A stretch of 64,000 nucleotides of DNA from Phenylobacterium sp. (GTDB lineage: Bacteria; Pseudomonadota; Alphaproteobacteria; Caulobacterales; Caulobacteraceae). The notes under the pieces are model-generated. The model was not told the DNA's origin, did no database searches, and worked only from the letters and a program-made list of their open reading frames with translations. The stretch spans positions 62,001 to 126,000 of the forward strand of contig NZ_JAUYAW010000064.1 of assembly GCF_030693405.1 (NCBI RefSeq), written 5' to 3'. Positions 37,326 through 51,795 of this stretch are shown here, piece after piece; position 1 is the stretch's first letter; every line of letters starts with the position of its first letter. The translations under genes and the position numbers were made by a program.

Positions 37326-37915
37326 GGGATCAGAGCGCCGCGCTGGCGCAGCTGGTCCAGGAGGCCCAGCATGGGCAGGCCAAGTATGGCGAAGTAGTCC
37401 CCCTCGATCTGGGCGAACAGCTGGGCGCCTGGACCTTCCAGCCGGTAACAGCCCACCGAGCCCAGCATCGCCTCGCCCTCCTGTTCGAGATAGGCGTCGA
37501 GGAAGGGTTCGGAGAAGTCGCGCATGGTCAGGGTGGCGCTGGCCGTCTCCGACCACAGGACCTGGCCATCCTGAGCCAGGGTGACCGCCGAATGCAGATG
37601 GTGCGGCTGACCGCGCAGAGAGAGCAGTCGCGCGCGGGCCTCGTCCAGGCCCCTGGCCTTGTCATAGAGGACGCCGTCGAATTCCAGGGTCTGATCTGCG
37701 CCGATCACGAGACCGGGCTGCAGGTCCGAGACGGTCACCGCCTTGATGTCGGCCAAGGCCTGGGCGACCGCGCGGGGGCTGCCGCCCTCGGCCTGGATTC
37801 GGGCCTTGACCAGGTCCTCGTCGACGCCGGAGACGATCTTGTCGAACACGACGCCCGCGCCCGTCAGCAGCTGGCTGCGGGCCGCACTCTGGGAAGCGAG
37901 AATGATGCGGGTCAT
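37322..37915 (-). CDS. maf: Maf family nucleotide pyrophosphatase
   Basis: The 197-residue protein begins [18 protein letters not shown], the Maf signature, and has [12 protein letters not shown] and [30 protein letters not shown]. Maf proteins hydrolyse non-canonical nucleotides (dTTP/UTP-type or m7GTP-type); which subtype is not clear here. It is joined to aroE and to ppsR by four-base overlaps. Confidence 0.92.
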
Positions 37916-38754
37916 CCCAGTATGTCCACCTGGCGGCCGGAGGTCAGCAGGTTCATGACCGCGGCGGCGGTTTCCTCCACCGAGCGGCGGGTGACGTCGA
38001 TCACCGGCCAGCCCTGTCGCTCATAGAGCCTGCGGGCCTGGACAATCTCCTCCCGGACATTGTCCACGTCGATATAGGCCGAGGTGCGGTTCTCTTTGAG
38101 GCTGAGCAGGCGGTTGCGCCGGATCTGGATCAGCCGGTCGGGCGAGATGGTCAGGCCCACCACCAGGGTGTTCTTCAGCTGCAGCAGTTTGTCAGGGATC
38201 GGCCGCGACGGGACTAGGGGCACATTGGCCGCCCGCACGCCGCGATGGGCCAGATAGATGCAGGTTGGTGTCTTCGAGGTGCGCGACACGCCGACCAGGA
38301 CCACATCAGCCTGTTCCAGATCCTGGCCCCCCTGACCATCATCGTGGCCGATAGCGTAGTTCAGGGCGTCCATACGGTTGAAGTACTCGTGGTCCAGCGC
38401 GTGCTGAGCGCCGACCCGGGTGGAGGTAGCCAGGCCCAGATAGCGGGACACCGCCGAGACCAGAGGATCGAGGGCGGCGATACAGGCGATCTCCAGCCGC
38501 CGGCACCCATCCTCCAGAGCCGCTCTGAGTTCAGCGTCGACAATGGTGTGAATGACCAGGCCCGGGGCGGACTCGATATCGGCCAGGGCGCGGTCCAGCT
38601 GCCGGCGGGACCGCACCAGGGCGTAGATGTGCTCGATGGGCAGGACGTCGTCGAACCGGGCGCATACGGCGCGGGCCATAGCGTTCAGCGTCTCGCCGGT
38701 GGAGTCCGAGACCAGATGCAGATGGAAATAGGTGGCGATGCGCGGGTTGGTCAT
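37912..38754 (-). CDS. ppsR: pyruvate, phosphate dikinase regulatory protein (DUF299)
   Basis: The 280-residue bifunctional kinase/phosphorylase has HLVSDSTGETLNAMARA, the P-loop GVSRTSKTPTCIYLAHRG and PSRPIPDKLLQL. It should reversibly phosphorylate pyruvate phosphate dikinase or PEP synthase. It is the first gene left of the predicted origin, at the place held by the gene called RP001 beside the Caulobacter origin. Confidence 0.93.
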   Translation of the reverse strand: MTNPRIATYFHLHLVSDSTGETLNAMARAVCARFDDVLPIEHIYALVRSRRQLDRALADIESAPGLVIHTIVDAELRAALEDGCRRLEIACIAALDPLVSAVSRYLGLATSTRVGAQHALDHEYFNRMDALNYAIGHDDGQGGQDLEQADVVLVGVSRTSKTPTCIYLAHRGVRAANVPLVPSRPIPDKLLQLKNTLVVGLTISPDRLIQIRRNRLLSLKENRTSAYIDVDNVREEIVQARRLYERQGWPVIDVTRRSVEETAAAVMNLLTSGRQVDILG

Positions 38755-38797
38755 ACCGGGGCGGCGGCCTGCGACAAAATGCTCTTGGGGACGAGGG

Positions 38798-38857
38798 AGT
38801 CGATAAGTCTCTTAACCGAGGCGGACAGGCTTGGGGATAGGTGACGACTTATCCCGG
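38798..38857. promoter_or_regulatory. cluster of degenerate DnaA-like boxes, left side of origin
   Basis: TTATCGACT (38798-38806, minus), CTATCCCCA (38832-38840, minus) and TTATCCCGG (38849-38857, plus) match the TTATCCACA consensus at six or seven of nine positions. A fourth, TTATCCCCG, lies at 39138-39146. Weak DnaA sites are known for Caulobacter. Single sites are not convincing; the cluster is suggestive. Confidence 0.45.
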
Positions 38858-38941
38858 CCTGGCAGGCGCTTCCGCCGGGGGCCGGGACAGACCCGCCGCT
38901 GGACCGGTTTTCGCACACAAGATCACCCGCCGGGGAAAACC

Positions 38942-38956
38942 TTAACGAAAGGTAAA
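38942..38956. promoter_or_regulatory. imperfect CtrA box in the origin
   Basis: TTAACGAAAGGTAAA fits TTAA-N7-TTAA with one changed base in the second half. Confidence 0.5.
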
Positions 38957-39009
38957 CACAGGGGCGCAGGCGAGGGGCCAGTCATCCTCAGTCCGCGAGC
39001 GGACGTCTC

Positions 39010-39024
39010 TTAAGGTTTTGTTAA
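39010..39024. promoter_or_regulatory. perfect CtrA box (TTAA-N7-TTAA) in the origin
   Basis: TTAAGGTTTTGTTAA matches the full CtrA consensus spacing exactly. In Caulobacter, phosphorylated CtrA binds such boxes in the origin and blocks initiation in swarmer cells. Confidence 0.75.
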
Positions 39025-39054
39025 GGTTTGAGCCACGACCTTGACCTTATGCCC

Positions 39055-39112
39055 GGGACTCACAGAGGCCCTCAACGCCTTGGGACAGATCAGGGGCGAG
39101 CTGTGAGTTCCC
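39055..39112. other. long inverted repeat in the origin
   Basis: GGGACTCACAG (39055-39065) and CTGTGAGTTCCC (39101-39112) are near-perfect inverted arms around about 35 bases. A GANTC site lies in the left arm. Confidence 0.5.
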
Positions 39113-39285
39113 TTGGTATGGCTGTGCCGGGGCAGGCTTATCCCCGGGTCTGACCGGCCCTACCACCTCCTCTGTCCAAACAATCTCTTTCTTTCAGGAA
39201 GAAGGGCGGGCGAGGGGGACAAGCGGTCCTGACCCTCTCACCAGGAGACTTGAGCCTGGCCCCCAGAGCCGCTTTAAGGCTTGGC

Positions 39286-40317
39286 ATGAGCGAACCTGCA
39301 AAACCCCGCCTCCTCCGCGCCCTGGCCGGCGAAACCCTTGAGCGTCCCCCGGTCTGGTTCATGCGCCAAGCCGGCCGGTCCCTGCCGGAGTACCGTGAGC
39401 TGCGGACCCGTGCGCCGGACTTCATCGCCTTCTGTCACAATCCGCAGATGGCGGCCGAGGCGACCCTGCAGCCCATGCGCCGGTTCCCCCTGGATGCGGC
39501 CATCGTCTTCGCCGACATCCTGCTGCTGCCCAAGGCGCTGGGCCAGAAGGTGTGGTTTGAGGCCGGCGAGGGGCCAAGGCTCGGCGAACTGCCTGAGCTT
39601 TCGGCGATGGAGGCTGAGATCGAGGCCTCGACCGGCAGGCTTTCCGAGATCGGGGAAACCCTGACCCGGGTTCGGGCTGAACTGGAGCAGGACCGGGCCC
39701 TGATCGGCTTCGCCGGCGCGCCCTGGACCGTGGCCACCTATATGATCGAAGGCCGCGGGTCCGATCGTTCCGGCGCCCGGACCTATGCCTATCAGAACCC
39801 CGAGGCCCTGGACCGGCTGCTGGACATTCTGGTGGAATCCACCGCCCGCTACCTGGTGATGCAGGCCAAGGCTGGCGCCCAGGCGCTGAAGCTGTTCGAG
39901 AGCTGGGCCGAGGGCCTGGCCGAGGACGTCTTCGAACGGATCGTCATCCGTCCCCATGCCGCGATCATCGAAAAGGTCCGCGCCGCCGGGATCGACACTC
40001 CCTTCATCGGCTTCCCCCGCGGGGCCGGCGCCCTGGTGGACAATTATGCGGCCAAGGTTCCGGTCCAGGCCGTGGCCCTGGACACCCAGGCCAGCGCCGC
40101 CCAGGGTCAGAGGATCCAGGCCGGCGGCAAGGCCATCCAAGGCGCGCTGGACAATCTGCTGCTGCGGGCCGGGGGACCGGCCATGGACGCCCGCATCGAC
40201 GCCCTGATCGAACAATGGGGCAAGGGCCCCTATATCTTCAATCTGGGCCACGGGGTTCTGCCGGACACCCCGGTGGAGCATATCGAACGCGCCGTGCGCC
40301 GGGTTACGGGGACCTAG
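39286..40317 (+). CDS. hemE: uroporphyrinogen decarboxylase
   Basis: The 343-residue enzyme turns uroporphyrinogen III into coproporphyrinogen III in heme synthesis. PVWFMRQAGRSLPEYRELR near residue 20 is the family signature; GAPWTVATYMIEG and FNLGHGVLPDTPVEHIERAV are typical. It is the first gene right of the origin. ATG 39286 fits the family start; a TTAA half-site lies just upstream. The hemH ATG follows its stop directly. Confidence 0.96.
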   Translation: MSEPAKPRLLRALAGETLERPPVWFMRQAGRSLPEYRELRTRAPDFIAFCHNPQMAAEATLQPMRRFPLDAAIVFADILLLPKALGQKVWFEAGEGPRLGELPELSAMEAEIEASTGRLSEIGETLTRVRAELEQDRALIGFAGAPWTVATYMIEGRGSDRSGARTYAYQNPEALDRLLDILVESTARYLVMQAKAGAQALKLFESWAEGLAEDVFERIVIRPHAAIIEKVRAAGIDTPFIGFPRGAGALVDNYAAKVPVQAVALDTQASAAQGQRIQAGGKAIQGALDNLLLRAGGPAMDARIDALIEQWGKGPYIFNLGHGVLPDTPVEHIERAVRRVTGT

Positions 40318-43648: not shown

Positions 43649-43664
43649 TGTTTCACGTGAAACG
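43649..43664. other. parS centromere site 1
   Basis: TGTTTCACGTGAAACG contains the perfect ParB palindrome GTTTCACGTGAAAC (43650-43663). It lies about 4.4 kb right of the origin and abuts the stop codon of the small membrane gene. Confidence 0.93.
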
Positions 43665-43892: not shown

Positions 43893-44864
43893 TTAAGGGA
43901 TGAGCAGGGAGGCGCCGATGGTCTCGCGACCTTCCATCGCCTCATGCGCCGCGCGGGCCTCCGCCAGGGGGAAGGTCTGGCCGATGTCGATGCGAACCTG
44001 GCCCTTGGCGATGACCTCGAACAGGGCCGCGGCGCTGGCGTCCAGTTCCTGTGTGGTGGCCACATAATCGAACAGGGTCGGCCGGGTGAGGAAGATCGAG
44101 CCCAGCTGCGACAGGCGGGCCGGCAGGATGGCCGGCGCAGGCCCCGAGGCGTTGCCATAGGAAACCAGCAGGCCGCGGCGGGCGAGGCTCTTCAGGCTGG
44201 CCTCGAAGGTGGCCGCGCCGACGGAATCATAAACCACGGGCACGCCGGCTCCACCGGTGATCTGCCGCACCTCTTCGGCCACGTCTTGATCGCGATAGAG
44301 GATGGTGTGGTCGGCCCCGAGGCTGCGGGCCCGGGCGGCCTTGTCCTCAGAGCCTACGGTGGCGATGACCTCAGCCCCCAGGGCCTTGGCCCACTGGACG
44401 AGGATCGAGCCGACGCCGCCAGCGGCCGCATGGACCAGGATGGTCTGGGCCGGCTGCACCGGAAAACACCGTCTCAGCAGGAATTCCGCCGTCATGCCCT
44501 TGAGCAGGGCGGCCGCGCCGACCTCAGCCGTGATTCCGGCCGGGGGCTTCACAGCCCGGTCGGCCTTGACCACATGCTGTTCGGCATAGGCCCCGATCGG
44601 ACCAGAGGCATAGACAGCCAGGTCTCCGGGGCTAAAGCGGGTGACCCCGTCACCGACCTCAAGGACCTCGCCCGCGCCCTCCATGCCCAGGCCAGACGGC
44701 AGCTTCACCGGATAGAGGCCGGTGCGGTGATAGGTGTCGATGAAGTTGAGACCGATGGCCTGGTTGCGGATCAGAACTTCGCCGGGACCCGGACGAGGGA
44801 TCTCGATCTCGACGGTCTCCAGAACCTCAGGGCCGCCCGTGCGGCTGATGCGGATAGCGCGCAT
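43893..44864 (-). CDS. NAD(P)H:quinone oxidoreductase, zinc-independent
   Basis: The 323-residue medium-chain reductase resembles zeta-crystallin/QorA: GRTGLYPVKLPSGLGMEGAGEVLEVG, then HAAAGGVGSILVQWAKALGAEVIATVGSEDKA as nucleotide site, with no zinc ligands seen. The substrate is probably a quinone or enone, not proven. Its ATG shares one base with the stop of the dienelactone hydrolase gene (TGATG). Confidence 0.9.
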   Translation of the reverse strand: MRAIRISRTGGPEVLETVEIEIPRPGPGEVLIRNQAIGLNFIDTYHRTGLYPVKLPSGLGMEGAGEVLEVGDGVTRFSPGDLAVYASGPIGAYAEQHVVKADRAVKPPAGITAEVGAAALLKGMTAEFLLRRCFPVQPAQTILVHAAAGGVGSILVQWAKALGAEVIATVGSEDKAARARSLGADHTILYRDQDVAEEVRQITGGAGVPVVYDSVGAATFEASLKSLARRGLLVSYGNASGPAPAILPARLSQLGSIFLTRPTLFDYVATTQELDASAAALFEVIAKGQVRIDIGQTFPLAEARAAHEAMEGRETIGASLLIP

Positions 44865-45562
44865 CAGGCGAGGTTCGCTTTGAAGAAGGCCATCGTCCGC
44901 TCATTGGCCGTCTGCGCATCGGCGGCGTCATAGTGCTCGCCCCCCTTGCGGGCGAAGGCGTGATCGCGGCCGGCGTAGGTGTGGATCTGCACCTGCGGGT
45001 GGTTCTTCAGGGCGCCGAGGATCAGCTCCTGGGCGGTCTTGGGGACAAACTGGTCTTCCTCGGCGATGTGCATCATCAGGGGGTTGGCCAGCCGCTCGGC
45101 CTCGCCGGTGCGCTGCTCGATGCCCACGCCATAGTAGGAGACACTGGCGTCAGCGTCGGTGCGGGTCGCGGTGAGGAAGGCCAGGAGACCCCCCAGGCAG
45201 AAGCCCACGGCGCCAACCTTGCCGCTGCAGTCGGCGTGGCTGCGGATGGTGTCGATCACCGCGCGGATGTCGCGGACCCCCTGGTCGGGATCAAAGGCGT
45301 TCATCAGCTCAAAGGCCTTCTTCCACTCGGCCTCCGACTGGTCGGTGATGTCGACGCCCGGCTCAATCCGCCAGAACAGGTCGGGGCTGATGGCGAGATA
45401 GCCCTGGGCGGCGTAGTCGTCGCAGATGTCGCGCATCACCTGGTTGACGCCGAAGATCTCCTGGATCACCACGACGGCGGGCGCAGGCATTTGGGCTGGC
45501 CTGGCCACATAGGCCGAGAAGGCGCCGTCCGGTGTCTGAATCTCTAGGGTTTGCCCGGCCAT
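44864..45562 (-). CDS. dienelactone hydrolase family protein
   Basis: The 232-residue alpha/beta hydrolase has VVIQEIFGVNQVMRDICDDYA, the nucleophile cysteine in GAVGFCLGGLLAF, and DHAFARKGGEHYD with Asp/His near the end. It is a carboxymethylenebutenolidase-like enzyme, but natural substrates differ. It is translationally coupled to the quinone oxidoreductase. Confidence 0.9.
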   Translation of the reverse strand: MAGQTLEIQTPDGAFSAYVARPAQMPAPAVVVIQEIFGVNQVMRDICDDYAAQGYLAISPDLFWRIEPGVDITDQSEAEWKKAFELMNAFDPDQGVRDIRAVIDTIRSHADCSGKVGAVGFCLGGLLAFLTATRTDADASVSYYGVGIEQRTGEAERLANPLMMHIAEEDQFVPKTAQELILGALKNHPQVQIHTYAGRDHAFARKGGEHYDAADAQTANERTMAFFKANLA

Positions 45563-47242: not shown

Positions 47243-47258
47243 TGTTTCACGTGAAACG
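47243..47258. other. parS centromere site 2
   Basis: TGTTTCACGTGAAACG contains the perfect palindrome GTTTCACGTGAAAC (47244-47257), directly after the mnmE stop. Confidence 0.93.
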
Positions 47259-47280: not shown

Positions 47281-47296
47281 TGTTCCACGTGAAACA
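47281..47296. other. parS centromere site 3
   Basis: TGTTCCACGTGAAACA matches parS with one asymmetric base in the core (47282-47295), 38 bases from site 2. Confidence 0.88.
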
Positions 47297-49327: not shown

Positions 49328-50028
49328 GTTCGACACCAACGGTCGCCGAAAACGCCGAAAACAGCCTCGAAAAAATCGGCCCTGTGGCGCACAGCGCCGT
49401 ACCCCACATCGACGAGGCGGAATTTGTGCGGCTGAGCGGGGCTTCGCCAGCTCAGATCGAGGCCCTCAGGGCCTATCGCGACCTTCTAACTGACTGGAAT
49501 CAAAGGATGAATCTGGTCGGCCCGGCGACCTTGCCCGACTTCTGGGGAAGACACGCCTGGGACTCCGCCCAGCTCATTTCTTTGGCGCCGCAGGCCCTGA
49601 CCTGGGCTGATCTGGGCGCCGGGGCCGGCCTGCCCGGACTCGTGCTGGCGATACTGGGCAAGGGCCGCGAGGGGTTCGAGGTTCACCTGGTGGAGAGCAT
49701 GGCCAAGCGCTGCCGCTTCCTGGATGCGGTGGTCGAGGCTCTCGATCTGCCGGCGGTGATTCACAACGACCGTGCGGAAAACCTGTCGCGGGATGTGGAT
49801 ATCGTGACGGCCCGGGCTTGCGCCCCGATGACCCGCCTGCTGGGCTATGCCAAGCCTTGGCTGACCGGAACCAACCAGGCCCTTTTCCTGAAGGGCCAGG
49901 ATGTGGCCGCCGAGATCGAGGCGGCTCGGGACGCCTGGCGGTTCGAGGCCGAACTTCTGCCCAGCACCAGCGACCCCCGGGGTCGTATCGTTCGCCTGAG
50001 GAACAAGATCCATGCCCGCCGAAGCTGA
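49324..50028 (+). CDS. rsmG: 16S rRNA (guanine527-N7)-methyltransferase
   Basis: The 234-residue enzyme has [17 protein letters not shown] (SAM site) and [16 protein letters not shown]. An extra 30 polar residues at the N-terminus precede the core; a shorter start is possible. Its 3' end overlaps the parA start by 17 bases. Confidence 0.94.
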
Positions 50029-50872
50029 GGTCCAGGACGCCCGGCCCGCCGCCGCGCCTGCGAGCCGCGCCCGCGTCCTGGTGATCGCCAACCAGAAGGG
50101 CGGGGTGGGCAAGACCACCACGGCGATCAATCTCGGCACGGCGCTGGCCGCTGTCGGCGAGAAGGTGCTGCTAATCGACTCCGACCCGCAGGGCAATGCG
50201 TCTACCGGCCTGGGCGTCGCCCGGGCCAGGCGCAAGACGACCCTCTATGATGTGCTGATGGGGGAGAAGCCCGCCACCGAGGCGGTGGTGGCCACCGACC
50301 TGCCGGGCCTGTTCCTGATCCCGGCCGATCCGGACCTGTCGGGCGTCGAGCTGGAACTGGGCAATCAGAGCCGGCGGTCCTTCAAGCTGCGGGACGCCCT
50401 GGACCAGATCCGGCGGGAAGGGGACTTCACCTATGTGCTGATCGACTGCCCGCCGTCGCTGAACCTGCTGACCGTCAACGCCATGACCGCCGCCGACGCG
50501 GTCCTGGTGCCCCTGCAGTGCGAGTTCTTCGCCCTCGAGGGCCTGACCCAGCTGATGCGCACCGTCGAGCTGGTGCGGGGCAGCCTGAACCCGGCCCTGG
50601 AGATCCAAGGCGTGGTGCTGACCATGTACGACAAGCGCAACAGCCTGTCGGAACAGGTGGCCAGCGATGTCCGCGGCCACTTCGGCAAGACGGTCTATGA
50701 GACGGTCATTCCGCGCAATGTGCGGGTCTCCGAGGCGCCGTCCTTCGGCAAGCCGGTGCTGGTCTATGACCTGAAATGCGCCGGCAGCCAGGCCTATCTG
50801 AAGCTCGCCCGCGAGGTCGTGGTCCGCGAGCGCCAGCGCCGCAAGGCCGCGGCCAGCAAGCAGGAAGTCTGA
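50012..50872 (+). CDS. parA: chromosome partitioning ATPase ParA
   Basis: The 286-residue ATPase moves the ParB-parS complex. The deviant Walker A KGGVGKTTT (residues 29-37) follows a 20-residue Ala/Pro-rich head; DSDPQGNAS and IDCPPSLNLLTVNAM are further ATPase motifs. ParA is essential in Caulobacter. It overlaps rsmG by 17 bases and precedes parB by two. Confidence 0.96.
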   Translation: MPAEAEVQDARPAAAPASRARVLVIANQKGGVGKTTTAINLGTALAAVGEKVLLIDSDPQGNASTGLGVARARRKTTLYDVLMGEKPATEAVVATDLPGLFLIPADPDLSGVELELGNQSRRSFKLRDALDQIRREGDFTYVLIDCPPSLNLLTVNAMTAADAVLVPLQCEFFALEGLTQLMRTVELVRGSLNPALEIQGVVLTMYDKRNSLSEQVASDVRGHFGKTVYETVIPRNVRVSEAPSFGKPVLVYDLKCAGSQAYLKLAREVVVRERQRRKAAASKQEV

Positions 50873-50874
50873 AC

Positions 50875-51795
50875 ATGGCGGAAAACCGCAGGGGTCTGGG
50901 CCGGGGTCTGTCGGCCCTGCTGGGCGAGGCCGAGGATGAGACCATCGCCGATGCGGCGGCCGCCGCCGAGGCCGCCGAGGCGGCGGGTCCGGTCAGGGCG
51001 CTGTCGCCCATGCGCGACCTGCCCATCGACCTGATCGATCCCAACGCGGCCCAGCCGCGGTCGGTATTCCATGACGAGGACATGGAGGAGCTGACCAACT
51101 CCATCCGCGAGCGCGGCGTGCTGCAGCCAATCCTAGTGCGCCCGCTGCCCAATGGCCGGTTCGAGATCGTCGCCGGCGAGCGCCGCTGGCGGGCCAGCCA
51201 GAGGGTCGGCCTGCACACCGTGCCCGCCGTGGTCCGCGAGCTGGACGATCTGCAGGTGATGGAAATCGCCATCGTCGAAAACGTCCAGCGGGCCGATCTC
51301 AGCGCCATCGAAGAGGCCCGCGGCTATGAGGTGTTGATCGCCCGGTTCGGCCGCACCCAGGAACTGGTGGCCCAGGTGGTCGGCAAGAGCCGCAGCCACG
51401 TGGCCAACATGCTGCGCCTGCTGACCCTACCAGGTTCGGTTCAGAACCTGGTGGTGGAGGGCAAGCTCTCGGCCGGCCACGCCCGGGCCCTGATCACGGC
51501 GGAAAACCCCGAGGCCCTGGCCGACCAGGTCATGGCCAAGGGCCTGTCGGTGCGCGACACCGAGGCCCTGGTGCGCAAGGGCGCAGCCCCTGCGGCTCGC
51601 GGCGGCGCCAGTCGCGGCGGCGGCTCAGGCGCTGACAAGGACACCGATACGCTGGCCCTGGAAAACGACCTGGCCGAGGTGCTGGGCCTGTCCGTCCAGA
51701 TCGCCGACCGCGGCGGCGCTGGCGAGCTGAAGATCAGCTACAAGACCCTCGAACAGCTAGACGACCTTTGCCGGAGACTGTCCCGCACGGGGTGA
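50875..51795 (+). CDS. parB: chromosome partitioning protein ParB
   Basis: The 306-residue protein binds parS and spreads as a CTP-dependent clamp. RRGLGRGLSALLG is the ParA-stimulating N-terminus, RFEIVAGERRWRASQR and IVENVQRADLSAIEEA the CTP-binding motifs, and VVGKSRSHVANMLRLLTLP the HTH. ATG 50875 lies two bases after the parA stop. Three likely target sites are at 43649, 47243 and 47281. Confidence 0.97.
   Translation: MAENRRGLGRGLSALLGEAEDETIADAAAAAEAAEAAGPVRALSPMRDLPIDLIDPNAAQPRSVFHDEDMEELTNSIRERGVLQPILVRPLPNGRFEIVAGERRWRASQRVGLHTVPAVVRELDDLQVMEIAIVENVQRADLSAIEEARGYEVLIARFGRTQELVAQVVGKSRSHVANMLRLLTLPGSVQNLVVEGKLSAGHARALITAENPEALADQVMAKGLSVRDTEALVRKGAAPAARGGASRGGGSGADKDTDTLALENDLAEVLGLSVQIADRGGAGELKISYKTLEQLDDLCRRLSRTG

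Follow-up and report, generated by a model that had tools for sequence, protein, structure and literature searches.

The ppsR-hemE intergenic region of a Phenylobacterium-like genome is very probably a chromosomal replication origin and the ortholog of Caulobacter Cori

The experimentally identified replication origin of Caulobacter crescentus, Cori, has COG1806/ppsR and hemE as its boundary genes (PMC1914354). It is described as carrying five CtrA sites and two G-boxes, with CtrA excluding DnaA and with W-boxes that depend on the G-boxes for occupancy (PMC4468827). The G-box sequence is TGATCCACA, and that of the W-box is TCCCCA, which is very weakly bound by DnaA (PMC4285127). In the account given in PMC4468827, CtrA sites have not been observed in other alphaproteobacterial origins, except those of marine caulobacters and possibly Rickettsia. 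The basal unwinding system, a second point of reference, is composed of a DnaA-box, a spacer (peak 10 to 13) and DnaA-trios (PMC8287927). For Phenylobacterium, the genome paper of P. zucineum set base 1 of the chromosome at the putative origin (PMC2529317); no treatment of the origin sites of this genus was found in the open-licence literature, judged by titles and abstracts.

The window, by which we mean the whole 64-kb stretch that was analyzed, is part of the 140.6-kb contig C10 of a draft genome (G000; 3.395 Mb, 85 contigs). The original prediction located a chromosomal origin in the gap between two divergent genes, and these were found as claimed, with ppsR on the minus strand and hemE on the plus strand of a 531-bp gap (38755-39285). 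The locus and its neighborhood comprise the following features.

37912..38754, minus strand: ppsR (COG1806/DUF299), left boundary gene, from its open reading frame and the HemE-locus comparison
38755..39285, unstranded: predicted origin region and counterpart of Cori, 531 bp, the gap between ppsR and hemE
39286..40317, plus strand: hemE, right boundary gene, from its open reading frame and the HemE homologue search
43649..43664, unstranded: parS, one mismatch, from a whole-genome parS search
47243..47258, unstranded: parS, one mismatch, from the same search
47281..47296, unstranded: parS, one mismatch, from the same search
50012..50872, plus strand: parA, named from translation and position
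50875..51795, plus strand: parB, named from translation and position, start codon chosen by hand

With gene names taken from translations, the order rightward from the gap is hemE, hemH, rho, two opposite-strand genes, mnmE, mnmG, rsmG, parA and parB, and leftward it is maf, aroE, coaE, dnaQ, secB, tim44 and mltA. The Caulobacter-like order hemE-hemH-rho-mnmE-mnmG-rsmG-parA-parB is thus present, and genes are mostly directed outward on both sides, the exceptions being secB on the left and 43893-44864 and 44864-45562 on the right. Among the best 80 of 592 relatives, the HemE of the window is 95 to 97% identical to that of the three nearest records (Phenylobacterium sp. or Caulobacteraceae bacterium); the divergent ppsR-hemE pair occurs in 59 of these 80 HemE loci, and no ppsR lies in the fetched flank of the other 21, including L030, L031, L037 and L058, which are titled Caulobacteraceae. 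The gap has a GC content of 0.62 versus 0.69 both in hemE and on contig C10. Of the origin characteristics used in PMC1914354, it shows an AT content above the genome average and an intergenic position beside hemE and/or COG1806, as well as CtrA sites of the form TTAA-N7-TTAA, one exact and one with a single mismatch. As for DnaA boxes, given as TTATNCACA in the same source, the gap contains none within one mismatch of TTATCCACA and has only W-box-like sites, to which that pattern does not extend.

We aligned 66 distinct gaps from Phenylobacterium and near relatives, which are related sequences whose counts are not independent events. A hemE match was present in 77 of 80 genomes, and loci or pieces were available for 69 (30 as loci and 39 genomes by pieces, with G031 in two). 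Eight genomes were left out (G008, G012, G017, G038, G039, G040, G043 and G051; G017 is J367 and enters the set as L034). Of the pieces, L233 was too short at 66 bases, and seven others (L209, L225, L229, L230, L231, L239 and L243) failed the hemE anchor. Sixteen loci were added (L002-L014, L016, L029 and L034), among them L003, L009-L012 and L016, which were included by HemE similarity and are not titled Phenylobacterium. Eleven of the resulting 77 gaps were discarded because each had a 140-bp stretch identical to one in another gap. The Caulobacter set was 30 loci of genus g22. Caulobacter sp. Root1455 (locus L020, genome G236) belongs to this genus, and C. crescentus may not be in the set; L314 had no ppsR in reach, and 29 gaps were used. 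The alignment with the Cori gaps of other Caulobacteraceae, suggested as a check on the prediction, revealed a conserved architecture at the same ppsR-hemE gap. Within the window, its elements are as follows.

38786..38794, minus strand: W1, W-box-like with a TCCCCA core, in the position of the left box of Caulobacter (TCCCCA in 65/65 aligned Phenylobacterium gaps)
38810..38820, plus strand: block B, TCTTA(G/A)CGAAG, conserved in the alignment, at the place of the Caulobacter left CtrA site
38832..38840, minus strand: W2, W-box-like nonamer CTATCCCCA (in 48/66 gaps)
38942..38956, plus strand: second CtrA-like site, one mismatch (also in near relatives L002-L004)
39010..39024, plus strand: central CtrA box TTAAGGTTTTGTTAA, exact TTAA-N7-TTAA, from a motif search
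39050..39066, plus strand: block F, TCCCCG-N-N-A-Y-Y-CACAGG, degenerate tandem DnaA-like (CACA columns 97 to 100%; degenerate in the window)
39138..39146, plus strand: W5, hemE-side DnaA-like box TTATCCCCG (position 7 is C in 45/66 gaps and A in 21/66)
39147..39159, unstranded: spacer of 13 bp from W5 to the tract (13 bp in 59/66 gaps)
39160..39177, plus strand: 3-bp-periodic pyrimidine tract, DnaA-trio-like, with C at every third base
39171..39204, unstranded: AT-rich stretch (AT-richest 30-mer), proposed unwinding element
39249..39278, plus strand: CTTGAGCC...TTTAAG element, conserved, probable hemE promoter

The gap resembles Caulobacter Cori in its COG1806/ppsR and hemE boundaries, its size, its parS linkage, its central CtrA site, a W-box 44 to 47 bp from the left box and a promoter-like element before hemE. 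It differs in the left box itself, which is TCCCCA in Phenylobacterium. In Caulobacter, that box has a TCCACA core in 29/29 gaps, and a W-box lies approximately 44 bp further on in 28/29. The exact G-box TGATCCACA occurs in 23/29 Caulobacter gaps versus 0/66 in Phenylobacterium, and the C. crescentus-like arrangement of this G-box adjoining a CtrA site was likewise found in 0/66 Phenylobacterium gaps. A left CtrA site within one mismatch is present in 29/29 versus 0/66, and a hemE-side CtrA site, within 130 bp of hemE, in 22/29 versus 2/66; the central CtrA site is present in 29/29 Caulobacter and 59/66 Phenylobacterium gaps. The median number of exact CtrA boxes per gap is one in Phenylobacterium versus three in Caulobacter. 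The expectation of a site set sparser than that of C. crescentus was therefore borne out against the 29 genus-g22 gaps, as a genus-wide property rather than one of this genome alone.

From these site counts, the left pair of boxes is common to both genera, but the outer box is of the W type in Phenylobacterium, whereas that of Caulobacter resembles a G-box. Other members of the family have TCCACA (L017, L018, L019 and L026), TCCACG (L015) or CTCACA (L024) at the left box, where L025, L027 and L059 could not be aligned. The occurrence of TCCACA outside Caulobacter suggests that the C of the Phenylobacterium TCCCCA may be derived. The putative origin of P. zucineum HLK1 (G031) is the same gap, as hemE is located 0.5 kb from the numbering origin (PMC2529317). 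Like the window, the HLK1 gap combines an exact CtrA box at the center with the two left W-boxes; it also contains two elements that are absent from the window, a TCCACA core at a distance of 13 bp from W1 and, on the hemE side, TTATCCACG. Beyond these genera, 29 of 30 other gaps (mostly Maricaulales-like and Rhizobiales) contain a DnaA box within one mismatch and five contain an exact CtrA box. Three of four Brevundimonas or Brevundimonas-like gaps (L025, L027 and L059) have no CtrA site within one mismatch, with TTATCCCCA and TTATCCCC-type boxes present.

The DnaA boxes of the window had been called degenerate, and the gap indeed contains none within one mismatch of TTATCCACA and four within two. 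These four are weak evidence, because at least as many occur in 2.1% of the window's 531-bp segments, and mismatch counts to TTATCCACA were rejected as evidence for DnaA boxes (83 matches window-wide versus 47 expected). The spacings of the left module are nearly fixed: W1 and W2 are 46 to 47 bp apart in 64/66 gaps, and block B is exactly 23 bp from W2 in 65/66. Counted without alignment, minus-strand TCCCCA occurs at least once in the first 200 bp of 65/66 gaps and at least twice in 61/66. A match within one mismatch of TTATCCCCA is present in 65/66 gaps (5.2 expected from mononucleotide shuffles). Near-matches to TTATCCACA (one mismatch or less) occur in 16/66 gaps (3.8 expected) and a TCCACA core in 41/66; the window's gap has neither, and on these counts the idea that the genus is without any strong box was rejected. 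Minus-strand TCCACA lies within the first 200 bp in 24/66 gaps, exactly 13 bp from W1 in 22 of them. In the subclade to which the window belongs, a TCCACA core is missing from eight of the nine gaps checked, among them that of the window. DnaA domain IV of this genome retains GGRDHTTVLHA, as in the E. coli DnaA structure 1j1v.

On the hemE side, C occurs at successive third bases of the tract with frequencies of 0.86, 0.86, 0.83, 0.83, 0.71 and 0.73, a periodicity unmatched for C by any tested control stretch of the alignment. A coding origin of the 3-bp period was rejected, as the distance to the hemE ATG modulo 3 is distributed 28/22/16. In 57/66 gaps, the AT-richest 30-mer is located 60 to 140 bp before the hemE ATG, immediately after the tract; in the window, the AT-richest 30-mer (63% AT) ties with 39002-39035 over the CtrA box. 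The box, the 13-bp spacer and the 3-bp-periodic tract beside an AT-rich stretch resemble the basal unwinding system described in PMC8287927, but the periodic base in the Phenylobacterium tract is C (G on the other strand). A strict pattern based on that system (spacer of 16 bp or less and three or more.A. trios within 16 bp) matches 10/66 gaps, which does not exceed the shuffles (mean 9), and the window's gap is not among them. Nearest hemE, CTTGAG-N15-18-TTTAA is present in 61/66 Phenylobacterium and 27/29 Caulobacter gaps. Its TTTAA starts 12 to 13 nt before the hemE ATG in 49/66 gaps (13 in the window), so close that the hemE mRNA may be leaderless.

The predicted CtrA box was confirmed as a motif: TTAAGGTTTTGTTAA is the sole exact TTAA-N7-TTAA in the window, and 100 shuffles yielded none. 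The 3.4-Mb genome holds 10 exact sites, one of them in the gap, versus five for a reversed-pattern control. An exact CtrA box is present in 58/66 Phenylobacterium gaps (0 expected from mononucleotide shuffles). The central site, at one mismatch or less, was counted above in 59/66; it is exact at the alignment columns of the window's box in 42/66. The first 110 bp contain no CtrA site within one mismatch in any of the 66 gaps. The genome encodes a CtrA that is 95% identical over 202 residues to a C. crescentus CtrA sequence.

The remaining predicted elements were present. Two GANTC sites occur in the gap versus 0.66 expected from the window rate, which is unremarkable; across the 64-kb window, GANTC is depleted (79 versus 251 expected), as we would expect with a CcrM-type methyltransferase. 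Twenty-five inverted-repeat pairs were found in the gap, of which 38822-38839/39139-39156 (78%) links the flanks of two W-boxes and the remainder are probably mostly chance. The IHF pattern WATCAN4TTR, which is not the pattern of PMC1914354 itself, has no match in the gap, and of the other gaps listed it matches only L018, L026, L040 and L056.

A parS cluster lies near the gap, as for a chromosomal origin. The three one-mismatch sites are all 4.4 to 8.0 kb to the right of it and are the only sites with two mismatches or less in 3.4 Mb; a search extended to three mismatches found two further sites elsewhere in the genome and none in the reversed control. Six relatives were searched. Five of them, J367, P. 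deserti, UBA3198 and the genomes of L014 and L027, have their best parS sites no more than approximately 11 kb from hemE, and in the sixth, the L030 genome, which has no ppsR beside hemE, these sites are approximately 1.6 Mb away. Another one-mismatch parS stands alone at G001:C1:3403046-3403061, 2.1 Mb away from the origin of J367. The parS-like palindrome TGGCTCACGTGAACCA, which differs from parS at three positions, is conserved; it is located at G000:C69:6879-6894, approximately 1.2 kb past dnaA, and also at G001:C1:1172494, G002:C3:887904 and G005:C10:441580; in J367 it lies approximately 7 kb past dnaA.

Strand composition proved informative in some relatives. A cumulative GC-skew minimum near 39 kb, put forward with the original prediction as a check, did not appear in the window, where there is no turn at 39 kb and the minimum is near 30 kb. 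GC skew was rejected as an origin locator, since neither the window nor contig C10 yielded a signal and J367 yielded little; it was clear only in G028 and mixed in G031. We also counted GGGNAGGG, a polar 8-mer that is the FtsK-orienting motif of E. coli. In J367 (53 samples, 4.81 Mb), the right and left arms have strand counts of 105:49 and 64:105, respectively; the best arcs are 1.236/1.256-3.90 Mb, with the gap at 1.295 Mb, and 0 of 1,000 order shuffles were as good. G028 is a single 4.29-Mb contig with the gap near 82 kb. Its best arc starts at 0.2 Mb and ends at 2.2-2.4 Mb (67:18, order-permutation P = 0.001); 8/10 samples on 0.2-2.0 Mb have a positive GC skew, and 10/10 on 2.2-4.15 Mb have a negative one. 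G031 yielded 77:14 (P = 0.0065), and P. deserti, with the gap-holding sample excluded, yielded 7:44 and 12:8 for the two sides of the gap. In G031, none of the samples closest to the gap (0.1, 3.6 and 3.85 Mb) has a GGGNAGGG bias of the expected sign (2:4 at 0.1 and 2:1 at 3.85 Mb). Since the near-origin bias is weak or reversed, the switch is placed to within tens or hundreds of kilobases and not to the gap itself.

The polarity switch was thus seen only in the relatives J367, G028, G031 and P. deserti. The 300-kb UBA3198 contig has no GGGNAGGG switch (30:33 and 7:7). The window's own contig gives 13:19 left of the gap and 11:1 right of it (Fisher P = 0.0027, which is optimistic because GGGNAGGG was selected following a less strict inspection of J367). 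Trained on J367 (cross-validated accuracy 0.72, 90 windows), a 5-mer strand classifier failed to transfer, with a permutation P of 0.155 in P. deserti and of 0.39 and 0.77 on the own contig; on UBA3198, P was 0.012, yet the change was near 180 kb rather than 248 kb.

Synteny, parS clustering, the conserved site architecture and the strand-polarity switches in relatives support the prediction. We conclude that the chromosomal origin of this Phenylobacterium-like genome is very probably located at 38755-39285 and is the ortholog of Caulobacter Cori; this is the best explanation of the gap, at a probability of roughly 0.94, and the working of its sites is a proposal. BLAST against plasmids returned matches confined to the hemE end of the query. 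The origin is ordinary in kind, and what seems novel is the simplified site set of the genus.

We infer the binding of DnaA, CtrA and ParB, the opening site and the regulatory consequence along the following lines. By analogy with C. crescentus, DnaA-ATP would assemble cooperatively on weak boxes, namely the left pair W1 and W2, the central block F and the hemE-side W5. From W5, DnaA would cross the 13-bp spacer to the periodic tract, open the AT-rich stretch before hemE and load the helicase, an unwinding step modeled on the basal unwinding system as presented in PMC8287927. Phospho-CtrA on the central box would, again as in C. crescentus, block initiation, and in the subclade it may also do so via the one-mismatch site 68 bp leftward. 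ParB on parS, 4 to 8 kb away, would then segregate the new origins. The unchanged DnaA recognition motif and the 95%-identical CtrA make it probable that the protein side is ordinary and that the DNA side has changed. Our tentative reading, held at less than even odds, is that in Phenylobacterium, and most of all in the window's subclade, the origin fires without a moderate- or high-affinity DnaA box, the rigid weak module W1-block B-W2 replacing the G-box/CtrA site, with DnaA nucleated by cooperativity or by a block-B protein and CtrA control being central only.

The TCCCCA blocks could instead be sites of another origin-binding protein, with DnaA using only block F and W5, which we consider unlikely. 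The binding of TCCCCA by DnaA is very weak even in C. crescentus (PMC4285127 and PMC4468827), block B is conserved between W1 and W2, and CTATCCCCA is not enriched genome-wide (24 versus 25 in the reversed control), all of which would suit such a protein. However, TCCCCA is the published W-box consensus of C. crescentus DnaA (PMC4285127), W1 occupies the place of the Caulobacter TCCACA box and the DnaA recognition motif is unchanged. Slightly less likely again is an only apparent loss of CtrA sites, in which degenerate or half sites (block B; TTAACC in the subclade) would still be bound by CtrA and regulation would be as in Caulobacter. Block B does retain TTA(G/A)C where the Caulobacter left site has its right half, and the window reads TTAACC, but the absence of a left site within one mismatch from all 66 gaps, against its presence in all 29 of Caulobacter, argues against this. 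Finally, it is highly improbable that the gap is an ordinary divergent ppsR/hemE promoter region in which CtrA regulates hemE, with the true origin elsewhere, e.g., beside dnaA: a conserved promoter-like element does precede hemE, and dnaA lies on a separate contig (C69) in this genome and approximately 131 kb from the gap in J367 (at approximately 1.164 Mb; L123:8169), but the conserved blocks at the ppsR end and center are unlike promoters and have fixed spacings, the parS cluster and polarity switch are found around the ppsR-hemE gap, the same gap is the experimentally identified Cori of C. crescentus (PMC1914354) and the rpsT-dnaA gap on C69, the sole rival place tested, was rejected because it contains neither a DnaA box at two mismatches or less nor a CtrA box at one or less.

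Under the proposed working of the ppsR-hemE origin, a genus without the left CtrA/G-box competition module or the hemE-side CtrA site should initiate under weaker dependence on CtrA and stronger dependence on DnaA cooperativity and ATP state. W-type boxes without an exact G-box in the sampled origins of a related genus are a natural test of the minimum affinity that an origin needs. Because two of the three CtrA positions are gone while the ctrA gene is kept, Phenylobacterium is also a natural test of what CtrA control adds.
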